This document shows, piece by piece, positions 10,774 to 35,461 of a stretch of 35,708 bases of DNA. The stretch's first letter is position 1. Every line of letters begins with the position of its first letter. The translations under genes were made by a program, and so were the position numbers. The notes below the pieces were generated by a model that made no database searches, was not told where the DNA came from, and saw nothing but the letters and a program-made list of their open reading frames with translations. Source of the stretch: Kiritimatiellia bacterium (GTDB lineage: Bacteria; Verrucomicrobiota; Kiritimatiellia; RFP12; UBA1067); assembly GCA_017507065.1 (NCBI GenBank), contig JAFWBO010000064.1:1-35708 (forward strand), in the 5' to 3' direction.

Positions 10774-14084
<3,311 letters not shown>

Positions 14085-14122: not shown

Positions 14123-14163
14123 GAAAAGAGACGGTTCGCATGGAAGCGGGGTTCTCTCTTTTC
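14123..14163 (-). terminator. Possible terminator overlapping the stop of the Gph-like phosphatase gene
   Basis: Nine-base inverted arms, GAAAAGAGA (14123-14131) and TCTCTTTTC (14155-14163), flank a 23-base loop. The outer arm overlaps the stop codon of the phosphatase. The sequence after the stem on the minus strand (TGTAATTTCGG) has only a short T run, so termination is plausible but weakly supported. Confidence 0.4.
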
Positions 14164-14803
14164 AGACATATGCGAGAAGATCTTTCATCTTCGAAAGACG
14201 CACGTGCGCTGCGCTGGAACGCATCGTGCCGAATCCGAAATCGCAGTACGCCGTCTTCACGCCCGCGTTGCGGCCGCATTCGACGTCGGTCCAGTTGTCG
14301 CCGACCATCCAGTCGTCTTCGCCGACGGAATCGACGCCGAGGCGCGCGGCGCAGGCGAGAAGCGGCTTGGCGCTCGGTTTCATCTCGTCGCAGTCGCCGC
14401 CGGCTATCACTGCGTCTCCGAAAAAACCGGCGACGCCGAGGCGCTCGAGAATCGTGTGCGTGGCGAACGACGGCTTTGCGGTATTGACGCCGAGAAGCAC
14501 TCCGCGGCGGGAGAGTTCTTCAAGCGTTTCTCCGACGCCGGGATACAGAGCCACCGTGTCGAGCATGTGCTCTTCGTAATGAGAGCGGAAAATCTTCCAG
14601 AGGCCGTCGGGATCGCCGGAGAGTTCCGGAATCGAGTTCACGAGCAGATGTCTTGCTCCGAGGCCGACGTTTCTGAGAATCTCGTCGACCGGAAGTTCGG
14701 CGAGCAAAAGATCGCGCCGCGTGTGGTTGACGGCGGAGCAAAGATCGAATCTTGAATCGACCAGTGTTCCGTCCATGTCGAAAAAACAGCATCTCACGTT
14801 CAT
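14162..14803 (-). CDS. HAD family hydrolase, phosphoglycolate phosphatase (Gph)-like
   Basis: The 213-residue protein begins MNVRCCFFDMDGTLVDS, with motif I DMDGT. A helical cap with GARHLLVNSIPEL follows. Motif II is the Thr in GVNTAKPS, motif III is the Lys in EMKPSAKPL, and motif IV is WMVGDNWTDVECGRNAG. This pattern is that of the Gph/PGMB branch. The substrate (2-phosphoglycolate, a sugar phosphate or a nucleotide) cannot be settled from sequence. The start overlaps the stop of the large upstream ORF by four bases (ATGA), and AAGGAA lies just upstream. Confidence 0.88.
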   Translation of the reverse strand: MNVRCCFFDMDGTLVDSRFDLCSAVNHTRRDLLLAELPVDEILRNVGLGARHLLVNSIPELSGDPDGLWKIFRSHYEEHMLDTVALYPGVGETLEELSRRGVLLGVNTAKPSFATHTILERLGVAGFFGDAVIAGGDCDEMKPSAKPLLACAARLGVDSVGEDDWMVGDNWTDVECGRNAGVKTAYCDFGFGTMRSSAAHVRLSKMKDLLAYV

Positions 14804-17800
14804 TTTCCTTTCTTTATCTTTACCATGCGAGCGCCGCGGCCGGACGCGGCCATGGCGCGCGCCCTGTCGCCGGCGGCGTGTTCAGGCCCTCTCACCACCG
14901 CGCGCCGGGCAGACCGCTCGCGCGTGAAAACAAGCTCGTTTCCGCTTCCGGCGGGCTTCTCGACGACGAACGAATCGACGATGCCGAGAGACGGGTCGTC
15001 AAAACAGAACGGCTGCGGGCAGCTCTCTATCGCGTTCCAGCCTTCGGGCAGATGGACGCGCACGGTCGTCTTCGACGGAGAGGACGCGCCGAGGACGAAC
15101 GGCGTCTTGCGCCTCGACGACGCGAGATCGCATTCTCCGCCGTCGAAACCGACGAGGGAAAACGTCATGCATCCGTCCGCGACGACGGCGAAATCCGGCA
15201 CGTGGAACGAGTGGCTCACTCTGGCCGGATACGACTTCACGTCGGCTGAGAGGCCGCTCGTCGCCGCGGCGCTCCTGAAATATCCCTTCAATACGGCCAT
15301 ATGCATGCGGGCGAGATCTTCAGGCAGGATCTCGGAATAGTATTTGCGAACGGCCCCGGCAGGATTGCCGTATATCCTTTCCTCCACGTCCACATCGGCC
15401 GAACCGTCCGCGCAGAGGCGGATCGCGACCGTCTTCTCTCGCCTCGACGAAAGATCGGCGCGAACGCACTCTACCGTGCCGGTGGCGCCGCCAGCCGGGT
15501 CGATGTAGCTGCCTCCCTCGCACGCGGCGGAGCCGAGCGGAGTGTATTCGTTCTCGGTGCCGATGAAATACACGCCGCCATCCGCCGACACGCGGCAGAA
15601 CGGGAGGGAGAAACGGCCGCAGTCGGGATTCGCCTCGCTGTGTTTCTTCTTTTCCAGGCTGTCGCGGGCGTCGTCGGCGACAAAGACCACCGATGCGTCG
15701 AGCCCCTGCCCTTTCATGAGCGAAACCATCGTGCGGATGTAGTCGAGCCGCGTGGCGTAGCGCTCGGCGATGACGCGTCCGGGTGAGGTGAGCTGCATTT
15801 CGGCCGGAAGAGAGAAGAGCGACGGTCCGGCGATGCGGACGTGGCGGGCGGTCCAGTTCCTCACGGCCTCCACCCGTCCCGTCGCGGAGAGAGCGCCGTC
15901 GACCTCGAACGGCGCGGCGCAGGGCTCCGTCTCGGCCGCTTTCAAGAAAAAGCGCATCGAATCTTCGCGCGTCCTGAAAGAAACCGTGCGAGTGTCGCGC
16001 CAGAGGACGGAATCGGGCTGCGCCGGCTCGCTGTCGAGCCGCACGGCATTCTTCACGACGCGCGAAAAAACGTTGCTGCCCGCCATCGAGACGGAAACGG
16101 CGATTTCGCCCGCCGGATCGGTCGAATCGAAAACAAAAGTCTTTCTGAAAGCAAGCGGCGAAAAAGCCGTCTCCACGACGGACGTCACCGTGACGACGCT
16201 GCCGATTTCGACAGACGGAAGATTGACGACGAGTTTTTTGCCGGCCGGGTAGCGCGGCGCCGCCGACACCCATCCAGCGTCCATGACGTTCGTCTCGCGT
16301 TCGCCGGCGAAAACCGTTTCGCGCCCGGGATTCGCGACGCAAGCCGATATCACGCGGACGGTTTCGACGGCGGGATTGTAGTTCCAGACGAGCTCTGAAG
16401 AGCGTTTCTTGCCGTCGTAAGTGAGTATCTCTTTGGAAAAAACGTTCGTGGCCACCCACGAATGCGCGGAAGAAAGGTTGTACGACGACGACGAAAAGAT
16501 GCGGCGCACGTCGGCGGATGCGAGAGGGTTTTTCGCGAACGAGACGTGTCGGCGGCCTGCGGCCTCCCGCTTTTCGAGAGTGTCGAGAAGCGCGGCATAC
16601 TCCTCAGGCGGAAAGGCGAGCGTATCGACGGAAAAGACGCTCTTCACCGAAAAGCGGCCGCGGGACGCCGAGAAGACGCGCGAGAACGAGCATCCGGAGC
16701 CGATCTCGACATTCTCCGGAATGTAAAGACACTCCCCGAACGAATCGGGCAGTTCGAGTTCTATCTCCTCGACATCGCGCGCGGTCGAAAACATTTCGAG
16801 CGTGAAGCGGCGCTTGTCGAGCGAAGCGGACGACGAAAGCATTCTCGACGCGATGCCGGCCGCGCCGGAAACGAACGGCGGGCACAACTCGTAGGAGCCG
16901 GCCCCTTCGACGCCTATCTCGCGGACGCGCGAAACGAGGGCGACTTCGAGCGGCTTTGCCATGTCGGAAAGATTCGCGGGAGAGATTTCGCACGAAAGGA
17001 CTTCCGCCCCGCCCGCCGCGGCCGACACGACGCTCTCGAGATATTCGCGCCGCTCGTCTTCCGTCATGCGCATGAAAAGACGGCGGCACGCCGTGTCGTT
17101 GATCCCGCGGAAGGACATCTTCGTTTCGAGAACGGCCGATAGATCCTTGGCCACAGTGCCCTTCGTCTTCACGACCAGCGAATTGTGCTCGGAGCTTTTC
17201 ACGGGGGAGACGAGAAGCTTCTCCCCTCCGGGACGCGCCACGAGATACGAGCGCATGCCGAGATACGCGGGGAATTCGTCGCGGCTCGTTTCCGGCGTGG
17301 GATCCATGAGCCTGTATCCGTCGGGAGCGGAGGGGTCGGCGACGGCGACGACGGCGTGGTTGAAAAACGGCCACGGGACTTCGCTGTCCATCTTCGCTCC
17401 GACATGTATCAGCGCCGGATACGCCTCGTGCCCCGCTATGCGCAGAAGCGCCGCGAGAAGAGCCGCCTTGTCGCGGCAGACGCCGTAACGGTTGGCGAAG
17501 GTAATGTCGACATCGTGCGGCGAATAGCCGGGCGACGTGTCTTCCATCGTAAGCCCCATGTAGCGGATGTTCTCGGCGGTCCAGATCCTTATCCTGTCGA
17601 TGTCGCGCCCGAGAGATTCGACGAGATTCGTCATCTCGGCCGTAGTCTTCTCCATGTGCGGAAGGGAAAGATTCCAGTACCACTCCGATATTTCGCGCCA
17701 GTCTCCCGCGGTCGACACCCTGACGGATTCCATCTCGCTCCAGAGCGGAGGCATCGAAGGCTCTGGGAACGCCTGGGGCGAATTGGTGGCGGTCCACTCG

Positions 17801-18447
17801 TGGAGGACGCTGCCGTCATCGAGCGTCCTGCTCGAATATGAAACGTTGCCGGCGTCACGGCGCACCGCGATCGACTTGAGAGGCCGTCCGGCCGGGGCTC
17901 TCACCGAATACGTGCTTTTCAGGACGGGGACGTCCCACTCGAACACGGAAATGTCGGCGAAGACGTTCTCCATGCGCGGCTTGAAGGCGATGCGCCGCGT
18001 CGATATGACGAGCGTGTCTCCGACCTTCAATCCCGGCAACTGGCATGAAAGAGTCCTGTCGAGGGGATCGTAGATGTTCGACGCCATCGACGAGTTGTCG
18101 GTGGAATCTTTGAGCGTCGCCGCGAAATCGATCTTGCGCACGCTTCCATCTTCGCCGCGCGCCTCCGCGGAAAGTATCTCGGCCGTTCCGTACCGGCGCG
18201 AATATCCAGTCGAGAAGACGCTCTCCTCGCGCCTGCCGCGTTCGGTGAGAATCTTCACGGTTCTGGTGACGATGCTCGTGTACGTGCCGTCGCAGGCGAA
18301 GGAAACGTCTTCACGGCTGTCCACGAGAACGGTGTCCGCGTCGGGGAATCGCTCCGTCGTTATTCCGTCATCCGCTCTGAGGATGCAGGAAACCGAGGAG
18401 GCGAGAAGCACGAGCGCGGCGATTCTGATTTTTTTCTTGAGTGTCAT
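14800..18447 (-). CDS. DUF3857 / transglutaminase-like exported protein from internal start (alternative product)
   Basis: ATG 18447 begins a canonical signal peptide (MTLKKKIRIAALVLLASSVSC, then a likely cleavage near LRA-DD). The product is 1215 residues. Residues 30-250 resemble DUF3857. A transglutaminase-like core follows with Cys324 in YGVCRDKAALLAALL, His364 in FNHAVVAV and Asp382 in YRLMDPTP, a complete triad. A second, degenerate copy lies at about 860-990: RYATRLDYIRTMVSLMK aligns with the first helix but lacks the Cys, while an Asp in SYIDPAGG remains. The rest is beta-rich. A -10 site 10 bases upstream would give a nearly leaderless mRNA. The role is unknown; related proteins are usually periplasmic. 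Confidence 0.7.
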   Translation of the reverse strand: MTLKKKIRIAALVLLASSVSCILRADDGITTERFPDADTVLVDSREDVSFACDGTYTSIVTRTVKILTERGRREESVFSTGYSRRYGTAEILSAEARGEDGSVRKIDFAATLKDSTDNSSMASNIYDPLDRTLSCQLPGLKVGDTLVISTRRIAFKPRMENVFADISVFEWDVPVLKSTYSVRAPAGRPLKSIAVRRDAGNVSYSSRTLDDGSVLHEWTATNSPQAFPEPSMPPLWSEMESVRVSTAGDWREISEWYWNLSLPHMEKTTAEMTNLVESLGRDIDRIRIWTAENIRYMGLTMEDTSPGYSPHDVDITFANRYGVCRDKAALLAALLRIAGHEAYPALIHVGAKMDSEVPWPFFNHAVVAVADPSAPDGYRLMDPTPETSRDEFPAYLGMRSYLVARPGGEKLLVSPVKSSEHNSLVVKTKGTVAKDLSAVLETKMSFRGINDTACRRLFMRMTEDERREYLESVVSAAAGGAEVLSCEISPANLSDMAKPLEVALVSRVREIGVEGAGSYELCPPFVSGAAGIASRMLSSSASLDKRRFTLEMFSTARDVEEIELELPDSFGECLYIPENVEIGSGCSFSRVFSASRGRFSVKSVFSVDTLAFPPEEYAALLDTLEKREAAGRRHVSFAKNPLASADVRRIFSSSSYNLSSAHSWVATNVFSKEILTYDGKKRSSELVWNYNPAVETVRVISACVANPGRETVFAGERETNVMDAGWVSAAPRYPAGKKLVVNLPSVEIGSVVTVTSVVETAFSPLAFRKTFVFDSTDPAGEIAVSVSMAGSNVFSRVVKNAVRLDSEPAQPDSVLWRDTRTVSFRTREDSMRFFLKAAETEPCAAPFEVDGALSATGRVEAVRNWTARHVRIAGPSLFSLPAEMQLTSPGRVIAERYATRLDYIRTMVSLMKGQGLDASVVFVADDARDSLEKKKHSEANPDCGRFSLPFCRVSADGGVYFIGTENEYTPLGSAACEGGSYIDPAGGATGTVECVRADLSSRREKTVAIRLCADGSADVDVEERIYGNPAGAVRKYYSEILPEDLARMHMAVLKGYFRSAAATSGLSADVKSYPARVSHSFHVPDFAVVADGCMTFSLVGFDGGECDLASSRRKTPFVLGASSPSKTTVRVHLPEGWNAIESCPQPFCFDDPSLGIVDSFVVEKPAGSGNELVFTRERSARRAVVRGPEHAAGDRARAMAASGRGARMVKIKKGK

Positions 18448-19503
18448 GGCGGCTGATATTATACCAATAACGGCGGCGATTGTGTTGAAATTGACGGAAG
18501 AAAAAACGCACCACGAAACATGGGCCTTTTCGGAAACGTCCCATATGCACATCCCGGCGAACGACACCGCGGCAGAACACATCATGGCCGTCGACACCGG
18601 GCGCACGAAAGACAGCACGTTTTCGAGAAACCCTCCGCGCGCGCCCCTCTCCATCGCCGCGAGAACGGCCCAGAGCAGGAGCGCGCCGGGGAGGAGAAGC
18701 GCGACAGACGCCGCCACGGCCCCGGGGAATCCCGCCATCTTCCATCCGAAAAACGTCGCCGCGTTTATTCCGATCGGCCCGGGCGTCATCTGCGAAAGAG
18801 CCATCACGTTCGCGAATTCGGCGGACGGTATCTGCAGGAAACGCGCGCTCTCGCCGACGAAATCGTTTATATACACGGGCACGAGAACATATCCGCCGCC
18901 GAATGCGACAAGAGCGTATTTTACGAATATGAAAGGCAGGAGAGTGAAAGAGGCGAGCCTTTTCCCAAGAGTCTTGAAAAGAGAAACCGCGATGCCGGAG
19001 GCCAGGGCCGCCGCTATCGCGAACACCGCCGGGATGCCGGTAAAAAGGAGAAGCGAAAGCGTGACTGCGAAGACGGCGCGGTCGAGCGGCGACGAGACGC
19101 TCTTTCCCCATGATCTCGCGGTCATGGCGGCGATGATCCCGACGAGCGAGGCGCGGAGCCCGACGAAAGCGCTTTCGAGCCACGGGTTGCCGACCGGGAT
19201 GAAATCGTATCCGGCCGAAACGAGTGAAAATATGGCGATGCTCGGAAGCGCCACGCCGACGAGCGCCGCGACCGCGCCGGCGGCGCCTCCTTCCTTGCGG
19301 CCGAGATACACGGCCGCATGGCCGGCCATTATGCCCGGCACCATCTGGAAAACGGGAAGCATCGACACGAGCTGCCCTTCCGATATCGTTTTCCTCTTTC
19401 TCGAAAACACCTCGTCCGCAAGCGCGATGACTGCATATCCGCCGCCGACGGCGACGAGCGCGATGCGGAACATTTCGGAAAAGATCGAGAAAAACTTTTT
19501 CAC
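14800..19503 (-). CDS. In-frame fusion: chromate transporter (ChrA) plus DUF3857/transglutaminase-like protein
   Basis: One uninterrupted frame of 1567 codons runs from GTG 19503 (overlapping the exonuclease stop, GTGA). Residues 1 to about 350 are a two-domain CHR transporter. The first half has VGGGYAVIALADEV and FQMVPGIMAGHAAVYLG; the second has FGGGYVLVPVY and LSQMTPGPIGINAATFFGW. The expected last membrane helix would be KKIRIAALVLLASSVSC (357-373). The same segment is the signal peptide of the DUF3857 protein whose Met is residue 353. There is no stop codon between them. If translated through, the large C-terminal part would be tethered to the inner membrane and face the periplasm. CHR proteins export chromate or related anions; the physiological substrate here is unknown. 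Two overlapping products remain possible (see the next entry). Confidence 0.8.
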   Translation of the reverse strand: MKKFFSIFSEMFRIALVAVGGGYAVIALADEVFSRKRKTISEGQLVSMLPVFQMVPGIMAGHAAVYLGRKEGGAAGAVAALVGVALPSIAIFSLVSAGYDFIPVGNPWLESAFVGLRASLVGIIAAMTARSWGKSVSSPLDRAVFAVTLSLLLFTGIPAVFAIAAALASGIAVSLFKTLGKRLASFTLLPFIFVKYALVAFGGGYVLVPVYINDFVGESARFLQIPSAEFANVMALSQMTPGPIGINAATFFGWKMAGFPGAVAASVALLLPGALLLWAVLAAMERGARGGFLENVLSFVRPVSTAMMCSAAVSFAGMCIWDVSEKAHVSWCVFSSVNFNTIAAVIGIISAAMTLKKKIRIAALVLLASSVSCILRADDGITTERFPDADTVLVDSREDVSFACDGTYTSIVTRTVKILTERGRREESVFSTGYSRRYGTAEILSAEARGEDGSVRKIDFAATLKDSTDNSSMASNIYDPLDRTLSCQLPGLKVGDTLVISTRRIAFKPRMENVFADISVFEWDVPVLKSTYSVRAPAGRPLKSIAVRRDAGNVSYSSRTLDDGSVLHEWTATNSPQAFPEPSMPPLWSEMESVRVSTAGDWREISEWYWNLSLPHMEKTTAEMTNLVESLGRDIDRIRIWTAENIRYMGLTMEDTSPGYSPHDVDITFANRYGVCRDKAALLAALLRIAGHEAYPALIHVGAKMDSEVPWPFFNHAVVAVADPSAPDGYRLMDPTPETSRDEFPAYLGMRSYLVARPGGEKLLVSPVKSSEHNSLVVKTKGTVAKDLSAVLETKMSFRGINDTACRRLFMRMTEDERREYLESVVSAAAGGAEVLSCEISPANLSDMAKPLEVALVSRVREIGVEGAGSYELCPPFVSGAAGIASRMLSSSASLDKRRFTLEMFSTARDVEEIELELPDSFGECLYIPENVEIGSGCSFSRVFSASRGRFSVKSVFSVDTLAFPPEEYAALLDTLEKREAAGRRHVSFAKNPLASADVRRIFSSSSYNLSSAHSWVATNVFSKEILTYDGKKRSSELVWNYNPAVETVRVISACVANPGRETVFAGERETNVMDAGWVSAAPRYPAGKKLVVNLPSVEIGSVVTVTSVVETAFSPLAFRKTFVFDSTDPAGEIAVSVSMAGSNVFSRVVKNAVRLDSEPAQPDSVLWRDTRTVSFRTREDSMRFFLKAAETEPCAAPFEVDGALSATGRVEAVRNWTARHVRIAGPSLFSLPAEMQLTSPGRVIAERYATRLDYIRTMVSLMKGQGLDASVVFVADDARDSLEKKKHSEANPDCGRFSLPFCRVSADGGVYFIGTENEYTPLGSAACEGGSYIDPAGGATGTVECVRADLSSRREKTVAIRLCADGSADVDVEERIYGNPAGAVRKYYSEILPEDLARMHMAVLKGYFRSAAATSGLSADVKSYPARVSHSFHVPDFAVVADGCMTFSLVGFDGGECDLASSRRKTPFVLGASSPSKTTVRVHLPEGWNAIESCPQPFCFDDPSLGIVDSFVVEKPAGSGNELVFTRERSARRAVVRGPEHAAGDRARAMAASGRGARMVKIKKGK
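18458..18466 (-). promoter_or_regulatory. Internal extended -10 site before the DUF3857 start
   Basis: Within the chromate-transporter coding sequence the minus strand reads TGGTATAATATCAG, with TATAAT at 18458-18463 spanning the codons GGT-ATA-ATA. Ten bases later is the ATG of the DUF3857 protein. A weak -35 (TCAACA, 19-base spacer) is the best available. The same extended -10 appears at five independent gene starts in this window. Confidence 0.55.
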
Positions 19504-19970
19504 GCGGAGAATCCCGTCTTCATGAAAAGAAGCGCGCACGCGACGGCGTCGTAAAGGCCGTCGTGCCACGTCCTGCCGGCGAGCATCCCTTCGGGCGCGG
19601 GCACCGCGCCGAAAAGAGCGCACAGGTCTCCGAGCTTGTAAGAAGGCAGGCGCGGATAGCGCTTTTTCGCGAGGCGCAGCGTGTCCGTCCACGGGCCCCA
19701 CTTTGTGAACGGAGCCAGACGCGTGAGAATGGTGCGCTCCGTGGCGATGTTGTGCGCGACGAGATTTCTGCCGGCGAGAAGCGAATGTATCTCTTCCCAG
19801 TGCGCTTCAAGCGGTTCGAAATCGGGCGTGAGGGGAGTGCCGAAAAACCACTCGCGCATGGAAACGATCTTCCCGTCCTCCGCAAAAACCGCGCCGAGCT
19901 GCCACGGCTCGTTGTCGGCGCCCGTCTCGTATCCCGTCGTTTCGAAATCTATGGCGATGAACGAATCCAT
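19500..19970 (-). CDS. DEDDh 3'-5' exonuclease (DnaQ-like)
   Basis: The product of about 156 residues has the exonuclease motifs. ExoI is FIAIDFETTG at residues 4-13 (Asp and Glu metal ligands). ExoII is in LVAHNIATERTIL, with DTLRLAKKRYPRLPSYKLGDL typical of the DnaQ/RNase T fold next. ExoIII-epsilon is WHDGLYDAVACALLF with the His-x4-Asp pair. It is a stand-alone domain with no polymerase or helicase attached, so a role in repair or RNA processing is possible but not decided. The ATG at 19970 is chosen because the alternative ATG at 20009 lies inside the terminator hairpin of the preceding operon. It overlaps the next ORF by four bases. Confidence 0.88.
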   Translation of the reverse strand: MDSFIAIDFETTGYETGADNEPWQLGAVFAEDGKIVSMREWFFGTPLTPDFEPLEAHWEEIHSLLAGRNLVAHNIATERTILTRLAPFTKWGPWTDTLRLAKKRYPRLPSYKLGDLCALFGAVPAPEGMLAGRTWHDGLYDAVACALLFMKTGFSA

Positions 19971-19982
19971 TTCTTTCAACCG

Positions 19983-20015
19983 AAAAAGGCCGCAGGCTTT
20001 TTCAAGCATGCGGCC
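19983..20015 (-). terminator. Rho-independent terminator after rpsU
   Basis: On the minus strand GGCCGCA-T-GCTT-GAAA-AAGC-C-TGCGGCC (19988-20015) forms a seven-plus-four base-pair stem with one mismatch and a GAAA tetraloop. It is followed directly by TTTTT (19983-19987). It lies 23 bases after the rpsU stop and closes the ribosomal operon. Confidence 0.95.
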
Positions 20016-34244: not shown

Positions 34245-35461
34245 CTGCCGTCCTCCTTTGCGAACCTGCATTCAATATCGAAGCGTTGGCTGCCGCCCTT
34301 GCCTGCCGACGGCCCCGTGAGGACGACTTCGGCGAAAAGCGGCTCGCCCTCAGCGCCCTCCGCCGACGAAAGCGCGTCTTTGAACTCGTAGACGGACGCC
34401 GCGACCGCGGCCTCGCCGGAAAAGCGCACGTCCTCGTCGCGCTTGAAATTCCAGCTCGTGAGCACAACGCCCTGCGGAAGACGTTCGGATACGGTCTTCA
34501 AAATCTCGAGAACGCCGGTGGAATGGTCGGAATACTTCCTGACGAGCTTCACCTTCTCGCGCATTTCGCTGACTTCGCGGTATTTCTTCGAGTGTTCGCG
34601 CGACAGGCCTTTTACGCGGTCGGCCATGAAGCCGTACGCCGCCGGCACCGCAAACATCGCCGCCGCCGCGACAAACCACACGGCGAGAGCGGAGACCGCC
34701 CATTTCCTGAGCTTGCGTTTGAAACGCGTCTCTTCGAGGACTTCGCCCCACGACGCGGGCAGCGCGTTGAGAGTGCCTTCCTCGCCGGTCCTTTCCGAAA
34801 CGGCCTCGATGACGCGCTCTCTCGGCGGAGCCGCCACCCGGCGCACCGGGGCGATGCCGCCCCAATCGGCCTCTATGCCGCCCACCGCGACTATTTCGTC
34901 GAGAGGCGCCGCGCAATCGCTCTTCTCGGCTTCGATCATGAGAAAGAGAACTTCGTTTTTCAGATCGGTAGATTTATGCGCGCTCCTCAGCGCGAGGAGC
35001 GACTCGCCGTCGAGAACCGCAAGCGCGAGATAATCGCCCTCGGGGATGGCCACGACCCTGCGCCCGGCAGACGATATCTCAGGCCACAGGGCGCGCAGCT
35101 CGCCGAAAACGAGCGCATCGATGCGCACCACTTCAAGTTTGGCTTCGTCGAGGGCGGCGGCTATATCGTCCACCGACTCTTCGGGCACCGCGAAAGCCGC
35201 GACGCATTTCGAGGATGCGTCTTCGCGCAGCATTTCGCACGATACGGTCAGTTCGGCATCGGGATATGGCGTCATGGAGGCGAGCTCGGCTCGGGCTATT
35301 TCGTCGCCTCTTTCCATTTCTTCGCCGTGGAACGCCAGCACCTTCACGAGCATGCGGTAGAGAGGCAAAGCAAGCACGGCTTCGCGGCTCTTCGCCGTGA
35401 AGCCCTCCACGCTTGCGCGCCCGTCCGAGAAGACGGCAACTGGCACTCTCTCCACCATCAC
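34241..35461 (-). CDS. GspL/PilM-PilN-like inner-membrane platform protein
   Basis: The 406-residue protein has a cytoplasmic N-terminal part of about 250 residues resembling the actin-like fold of PilM/GspL, ending with EIVAVGGIEADWGGI. A single membrane helix (253-278, AVSALAVWFVAAAAMFAVPAAYG) is followed by a coiled coil (280-310) and a PilN-like periplasmic domain (VLEILKTVSERLPQGVVLTS in windows). PilM and PilN functions thus appear fused, as in GspL of type II secretion. The frame starts GTG-ATG; with ATG 35458 the -10 box lies eight bases upstream, so the mRNA would be leaderless. Akkermansia's Amuc_1098-1101 pilus-like locus has similar neighbours, as I recall it. Confidence is moderate for the exact family. 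Confidence 0.78.
   Translation of the reverse strand: MMVERVPVAVFSDGRASVEGFTAKSREAVLALPLYRMLVKVLAFHGEEMERGDEIARAELASMTPYPDAELTVSCEMLREDASSKCVAAFAVPEESVDDIAAALDEAKLEVVRIDALVFGELRALWPEISSAGRRVVAIPEGDYLALAVLDGESLLALRSAHKSTDLKNEVLFLMIEAEKSDCAAPLDEIVAVGGIEADWGGIAPVRRVAAPPRERVIEAVSERTGEEGTLNALPASWGEVLEETRFKRKLRKWAVSALAVWFVAAAAMFAVPAAYGFMADRVKGLSREHSKKYREVSEMREKVKLVRKYSDHSTGVLEILKTVSERLPQGVVLTSWNFKRDEDVRFSGEAAVAASVYEFKDALSSAEGAEGEPLFAEVVLTGPSAGKGGSQRFDIECRFAKEDGR

Follow-up and report, generated by a model that had tools for sequence, protein, structure and literature searches.

A chromate transporter open in frame into a DUF3857/transglutaminase protein: a putative polyprotein with a nested gene in one genus of the Kiritimatiellia

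FbcH of Bradyrhizobium (cytochrome b/c1) is a bacterial polyprotein in which signal peptidase separates the two proteins at an internal signal sequence. No papers on FbcH cleavage were found in the open literature. As in FbcH, a membrane protein and a periplasmic protein are encoded in one frame at the locus described here, and cleavage of the product of this locus is a prediction. The two systems differ in that their proteins are unrelated and in that the putative signal of the present fusion is the transporter's own last helix. Unlike FbcH, this fusion also carries an internal promoter element in half of the genomes, and it comes and goes within a single genus.

The closest described relatives of the membrane half are the long-chain CHR (ChrA, PF02417) transporters. 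The predicted topology of ChrA from Shewanella has 10 helices and a periplasmic N-terminus (PMC5699817), and a periplasmic C-terminus for the CHR part of the fusion agrees with that prediction. The fusion resembles these transporters in having two normal-sized CHR domains that each pass the Pfam cut-off, in its motifs, and in a last helix at the expected place, but it lacks the stop codon and runs on into a predicted exported enzyme of 1190 residues. For the enzyme half, the nearest solved structure is PDB 3kd4 (Parabacteroides BDI_1141), a "putative protease" that was found with Foldseek (E 1.6e-18); a sequence search of the PDB found no relative. The domain order, the fold, and the Cys-His-Asp residues are the same in both, whereas the enzyme described here has two modules, the second without the Cys, and a transporter helix in place of a signal peptide. 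No papers on DUF3857 combined with transglutaminase were found in the open literature. The parts, and the principle of a bacterial polyprotein parted by signal peptidase, are already known. As far as we have found, the CHR-DUF3857 pairing, the dual use of a last helix together with an internal promoter, and the patchy occurrence within one genus are undescribed.

The DNA that was analyzed, referred to as the window, is a stretch of 35,708 nucleotides from a Kiritimatiellia bacterium (contig JAFWBO010000064.1 of assembly GCA_017507065.1). The first-pass annotation of this DNA proposed an in-frame fusion of a chromate transporter to a DUF3857/transglutaminase protein, and the frame was found to be open from its GTG for 1567 codons and to be conserved in 12 genomes (Table 1). 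In Pfam the fusion matches Chromate_transp in two stretches (combined E 5e-54), DUF3857 in two more (E 4e-33), and Transglut_core (E 6e-8). The length of 1215 residues given earlier for the enzyme part is correct when counted from Met353. By calculation, the fusion has a mass of 169 kDa, the product from Met353 has 132 kDa, and the mature enzyme has 130 kDa.

Table 1. Positions of the fused gene, its parts, and its neighbors in the window
Feature	Position	Strand	Remarks
CHR-DUF3857/transglutaminase ORF, uninterrupted	14800..19503	(-)	1567 aa, GTG start; same frame open in 12 genomes
RNase_T-type exonuclease gene, upstream	19500..20009	(-)	stop overlaps the start of the fusion (GTGA)
HAD-family phosphatase gene, downstream	14162..14803	(-)	its ATG overlaps the stop of the fusion (ATGA)
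Chromate transporter domain 1	18994..19488	(-)	PF02417 E 4.4e-29
Chromate transporter domain 2, match reaching into the junction helix	18400..18933	(-)	PF02417 E 7.2e-29, covering 5-161 of the 166 model positions
Extended -10 promoter-like element TGGTATAAT in the transporter reading frame	18458..18466	(-)	strongest site of the whole gene
In-frame internal ATG (Met353)	18445..18447	(-)	10 nt downstream of the -10 element
Shared helix, residues 358-377: the transporter's last transmembrane helix and the enzyme's putative signal peptide	18373..18432	(-)	predicted cleavage after Ala377
DUF3857 domain, module 1	17776..18291	(-)	PF12969 E 2.8e-22, whole-genome search
Transglutaminase core, Cys676-His716-Asp734	17296..17646	(-)	PF01841 at residues 620-694, E 6e-8
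DUF3857 domain, module 2	16078..16464	(-)	aligned to module 1 by profile with E 2.8e-8
Second transglutaminase-like core	15634..15906	(-)	Arg in place of the catalytic Cys (RYATRLDY versus RYGVCRDK)

The start position of the fused gene is kept in the relatives, often as a GTGA, ATGA, or TTGA overlap with the gene before it. The exonuclease gene also adjoins CHR in G017, G069, G083, G073, G074, and G079. In five fused genomes (loci L083, L093, L094, L095, and L098), a gene for 6-pyruvoyl tetrahydropterin synthase replaces the exonuclease gene upstream, and the start/stop overlap is kept.

A search of related genomes for the same junction had been advised earlier. When it was conducted with a junction profile, the uninterrupted junction was found in 12 of the 61 genomes of the same genus (G000, G004, G012, G016, G017, G024, G027, G031, G032, G069, G075, and G083). 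The remaining genomes of the genus have separate CHR and DUF3857 genes. The first-pass annotation had made the fusion depend on two points: the junction contains no stop codon or frameshift in any of the 12 genomes, and, with 12 of 61 fused, the homologous loci do not always keep the two genes apart. A whole-protein search of related genomes found the full open frame in nine genomes of the genus, including that of the window, and the fused proteins were determined to be about 42-45% identical to that of the window over their length and 43-48% in the aligned part. Nine fused copies are also present in named public MAGs from different projects; these are Kiritimatiellae/Verrucomicrobia MAGs from different groups, many of them from the gut of goat, sheep, and yak. 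Outside the genus, no fusion was found among the listed matches from 162 genomes of the order and 388 of the phylum, and the long matches that contain a stop codon (G182, G302, G218, and G193) have no CHR upstream. Beyond the two matches each within the fused gene, no other PF02417 or PF12969 match was found in any of the 12 fused genomes, which are incomplete MAGs (64-92%), so that a copy may have been missed in any one of them but less so in all.

Both CHR domains score above the curated PF02417 cut-off (101.2 and 100.4 bits versus 28.6). The earlier description of a full transporter with an MTPGP-type motif in both halves holds for the two domains and for the second half, which reads QMTPGP, but not for the first half, which reads QMVPGI. 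A profile of stand-alone CHR proteins, built from 22 C-terminal halves, matches the protein of the window to position 183 of 188 and all 12 fused proteins through positions 182-184. Since these matches extend to within about 5 residues of the end of the helix, the junction helix is the transporter's own last helix and the transporter is complete with it; without this segment the last helix would be missing, as had been suggested in the first-pass annotation. We take the label "anion exporter" for the CHR part from family membership.

In the fused proteins the junction is a single helix behind a basic cluster, which ends in A/V/L-x-A and is mostly followed by an acidic residue. Alanine occupies position -1 (Ala377) in 12 of 12 fused proteins, compared with a small residue in the same column in 7 of 21 stand-alone CHR proteins (Fisher p 1.6e-4, with the sequences, from about 6 lineages, counted as independent). 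The stretch from the last basic residue to Ala377 is free of indels. In the unfused genome G074 (locus L086), whose transporter is the nearest to that of the window in the CHR tree, the CHR stop codon is located directly after the aligned LRA: the protein ends "...KKCSIMTLVLASAAVGAALRA-stop" and aligns without gaps to "...KKKIRIAALVLLASSVSCILRA" of the window, which is followed by DD. The transporter would thus regain its natural C-terminus if the chain were cut after Ala377. In the unfused genomes the last CHR helix lies a few residues before the stop codon, and the stand-alone enzymes have ordinary signal peptides that are placed just before the same mature start.

By motif, the junction fits the pattern of an internal signal, with a basic end, a hydrophobic core, and an A-x-A-like site. 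The proposal that this one segment suits both a last helix and a signal peptide agrees with the CHR profile and with the motif. Structure prediction for the junction, another check that had been suggested, gave an AlphaFold helix at residues 361-376, then a loop, and then the strands of DUF3857 (39 sequences, mean pLDDT 82, and pTM 0.59, with a relative domain placement that is not reliable). The residue at -3 in the window is Leu, which is acceptable for signal peptidase but not ideal, and the helix exceeds the usual length of a signal peptide. It is common for transmembrane helices to escape cleavage by signal peptidase. We also considered a junction lipobox at SVSC and dropped it, since it is not conserved in the other fused proteins.

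DUF3857 and Transglut_core both score above their cut-offs in the fusion. Cys676, His716, and Asp734 are invariant across the 9 aligned fused proteins, and the catalytic Cys of module 2 is absent from all 9. From its residues, module 2 (15634-16464) is probably an inactive duplicate. The fold points to a putative cysteine peptidase or amidase that would act in the periplasm.

The window contains 7 copies of TATAAT (2.0 expected) and 6 of TGNTATAAT (0.1 expected), nearly all just ahead of the starts of genes or tRNAs; one of them is the element at 18458-18466. The junction was scanned with a -10 matrix built in part from sites ahead of stand-alone DUF3857 genes, so that the scan measures likeness to those sites, and 0 of 283 coding windows of the window's gene were found to match the junction site in strength. 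In six fused genomes (G000, G004, G017, G031, G069, and G083), no -10 site in the gene scores higher than the one at the junction, and 0 of about 280 coding windows reach its level. The junction site of G016 is doubtful by the same scan, and no comparable element was found at the junction in G012, G032, G075, G024, or G027; in these five genomes the enzyme therefore seems dependent on the fused frame. Many unfused enzyme genes have the same -10 element upstream. An internal ATG is present at or near the position of Met353 in most fused genomes and after the basic residues in others, and in G017 and G069 it is accompanied by a Shine-Dalgarno-like AGGAG.

The explanation that we favor, and that we hold to be reasonably probable, is that the locus encodes a polyprotein and a nested gene in the same frame, with one helix shared as the last transmembrane segment and the signal peptide, and that signal peptidase frees the enzyme. 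Ribosomes that start at the GTG of the transporter would meet no stop codon and would make CHR-DUF3857 as one chain. The last helix of the transporter would be inserted with its basic end in the cytoplasm and its far end in the periplasm, and the enzyme would be exported via this helix. Signal peptidase I would then probably cut after Ala377, which would leave the transporter with the C-terminus seen in the unfused relative and set free a periplasmic enzyme of the DUF3857/transglutaminase fold. In the genome of the window and several others, separate synthesis of the enzyme would be possible from the internal promoter element and the in-frame ATG, and the same helix would then act as the signal peptide. 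The nested-gene and polyprotein routes probably both occur, and some lineages show only the second. Translation, cleavage, and internal initiation, like the activities of the enzyme and the transporter, are read here from sequence.

Three other readings were weighed against a cleaved polyprotein with a nested gene. Every genome in the set is a MAG, and an artefact of assembly or sequencing could in principle have removed a stop codon or hidden a frameshift. We regard this as very improbable, since several projects and pipelines yielded the same junction, in 12 genomes and without indels in the helix, and sequencing error as the source of the missing stop is rejected. It is also unlikely that the chain escapes cleavage, with the periplasmic enzyme permanently anchored to the CHR transporter and the two acting as one machine. 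Such a tether is suggested by the single chain without a stop codon, by the lack of an internal promoter in about half of the fused genes, and by the AlphaFold helix, which ends at residue 376 with a short linker to the DUF3857 domain and is compatible with an anchored domain. However, an invariant Ala of the kind used by signal peptidase is found at the natural C-terminus of the transporter, separate proteins suffice in the unfused relatives, and a promoter element for the enzyme alone lies inside the gene in six fused genomes. The first-pass annotation had pictured the enzyme, if the fusion is made, as attached to the transporter. The conserved fusion frame, the junction as the last helix, and its likeness to a signal peptide are retained from that picture, whereas lasting attachment is judged less likely because of the invariant Ala at the stop site of the unfused relative and the internal promoter in half of the fused genes.

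We find it still less likely that the locus operates in practice as two genes, so that nearly all of the enzyme comes from the internal promoter and ATG, and the run-on product of the transporter frame is incidental. Six of the fused genomes have a strong -10 element and an ATG, and two of these the AGGAG as well, as such an arrangement would predict, but the element is absent or weak in G012, G032, G075, G024, G027, and G016, where the frame is still open. Without a stop codon, moreover, each translated transporter carries the enzyme, which is a large cost unless the enzyme is used.

Neither the CHR tree nor the DUF3857 tree groups the fused genes in one clade, and AU tests rejected such a grouping (p 8e-7 and 4e-81). 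Six changes between the fused and split states are needed. The junction layout is the same in all fused genes, and the -10 element is found at the same codons in G004 and the G017 group; on these features we tentatively favor a single old fusion that was split repeatedly, rather than many separate fusion events. The row rnhB-folP-exonuclease-CHR-enzyme is present in G017 and G083, and it fits the neighboring genes as the ancestral row. In G018 (L100) and G077 (L101), folP is followed directly by the DUF3857 gene, whereas the relatives G017 and G083 have the exonuclease and CHR genes in between; this arrangement looks like a clean deletion. At locus L048 (G034, 1486-2578), a CHR gene is broken by a mid-gene change of frame just upstream of a separate DUF3857 gene.

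In the unlikely case that the chain is left uncut, it would be a transporter-enzyme fusion of a kind for which we have found no description. The gene pair occurs within one genus in twelve fused versions and about fifty split ones, which together form a natural set. With this set it can be asked how a transmembrane helix can double as a signal peptide, whether signal peptidase parts such a helix, and how fusions of this type arise and break. The pairing also hints at a shared job for CHR (in anaerobes) and DUF3857/transglutaminase proteins, two families of unclear physiological role.

The TATAAT elements at window positions 1151, 1258, 5809, 14099, 23345, and 35472 are located at the starts of genes or tRNAs, mostly with TG one base upstream. 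In some cases the start codon follows 5-10 nt past TATAAT, as for the transketolase at 14084 and the ORF at 35461, which suggests leaderless or very short-leader mRNAs in this genus.
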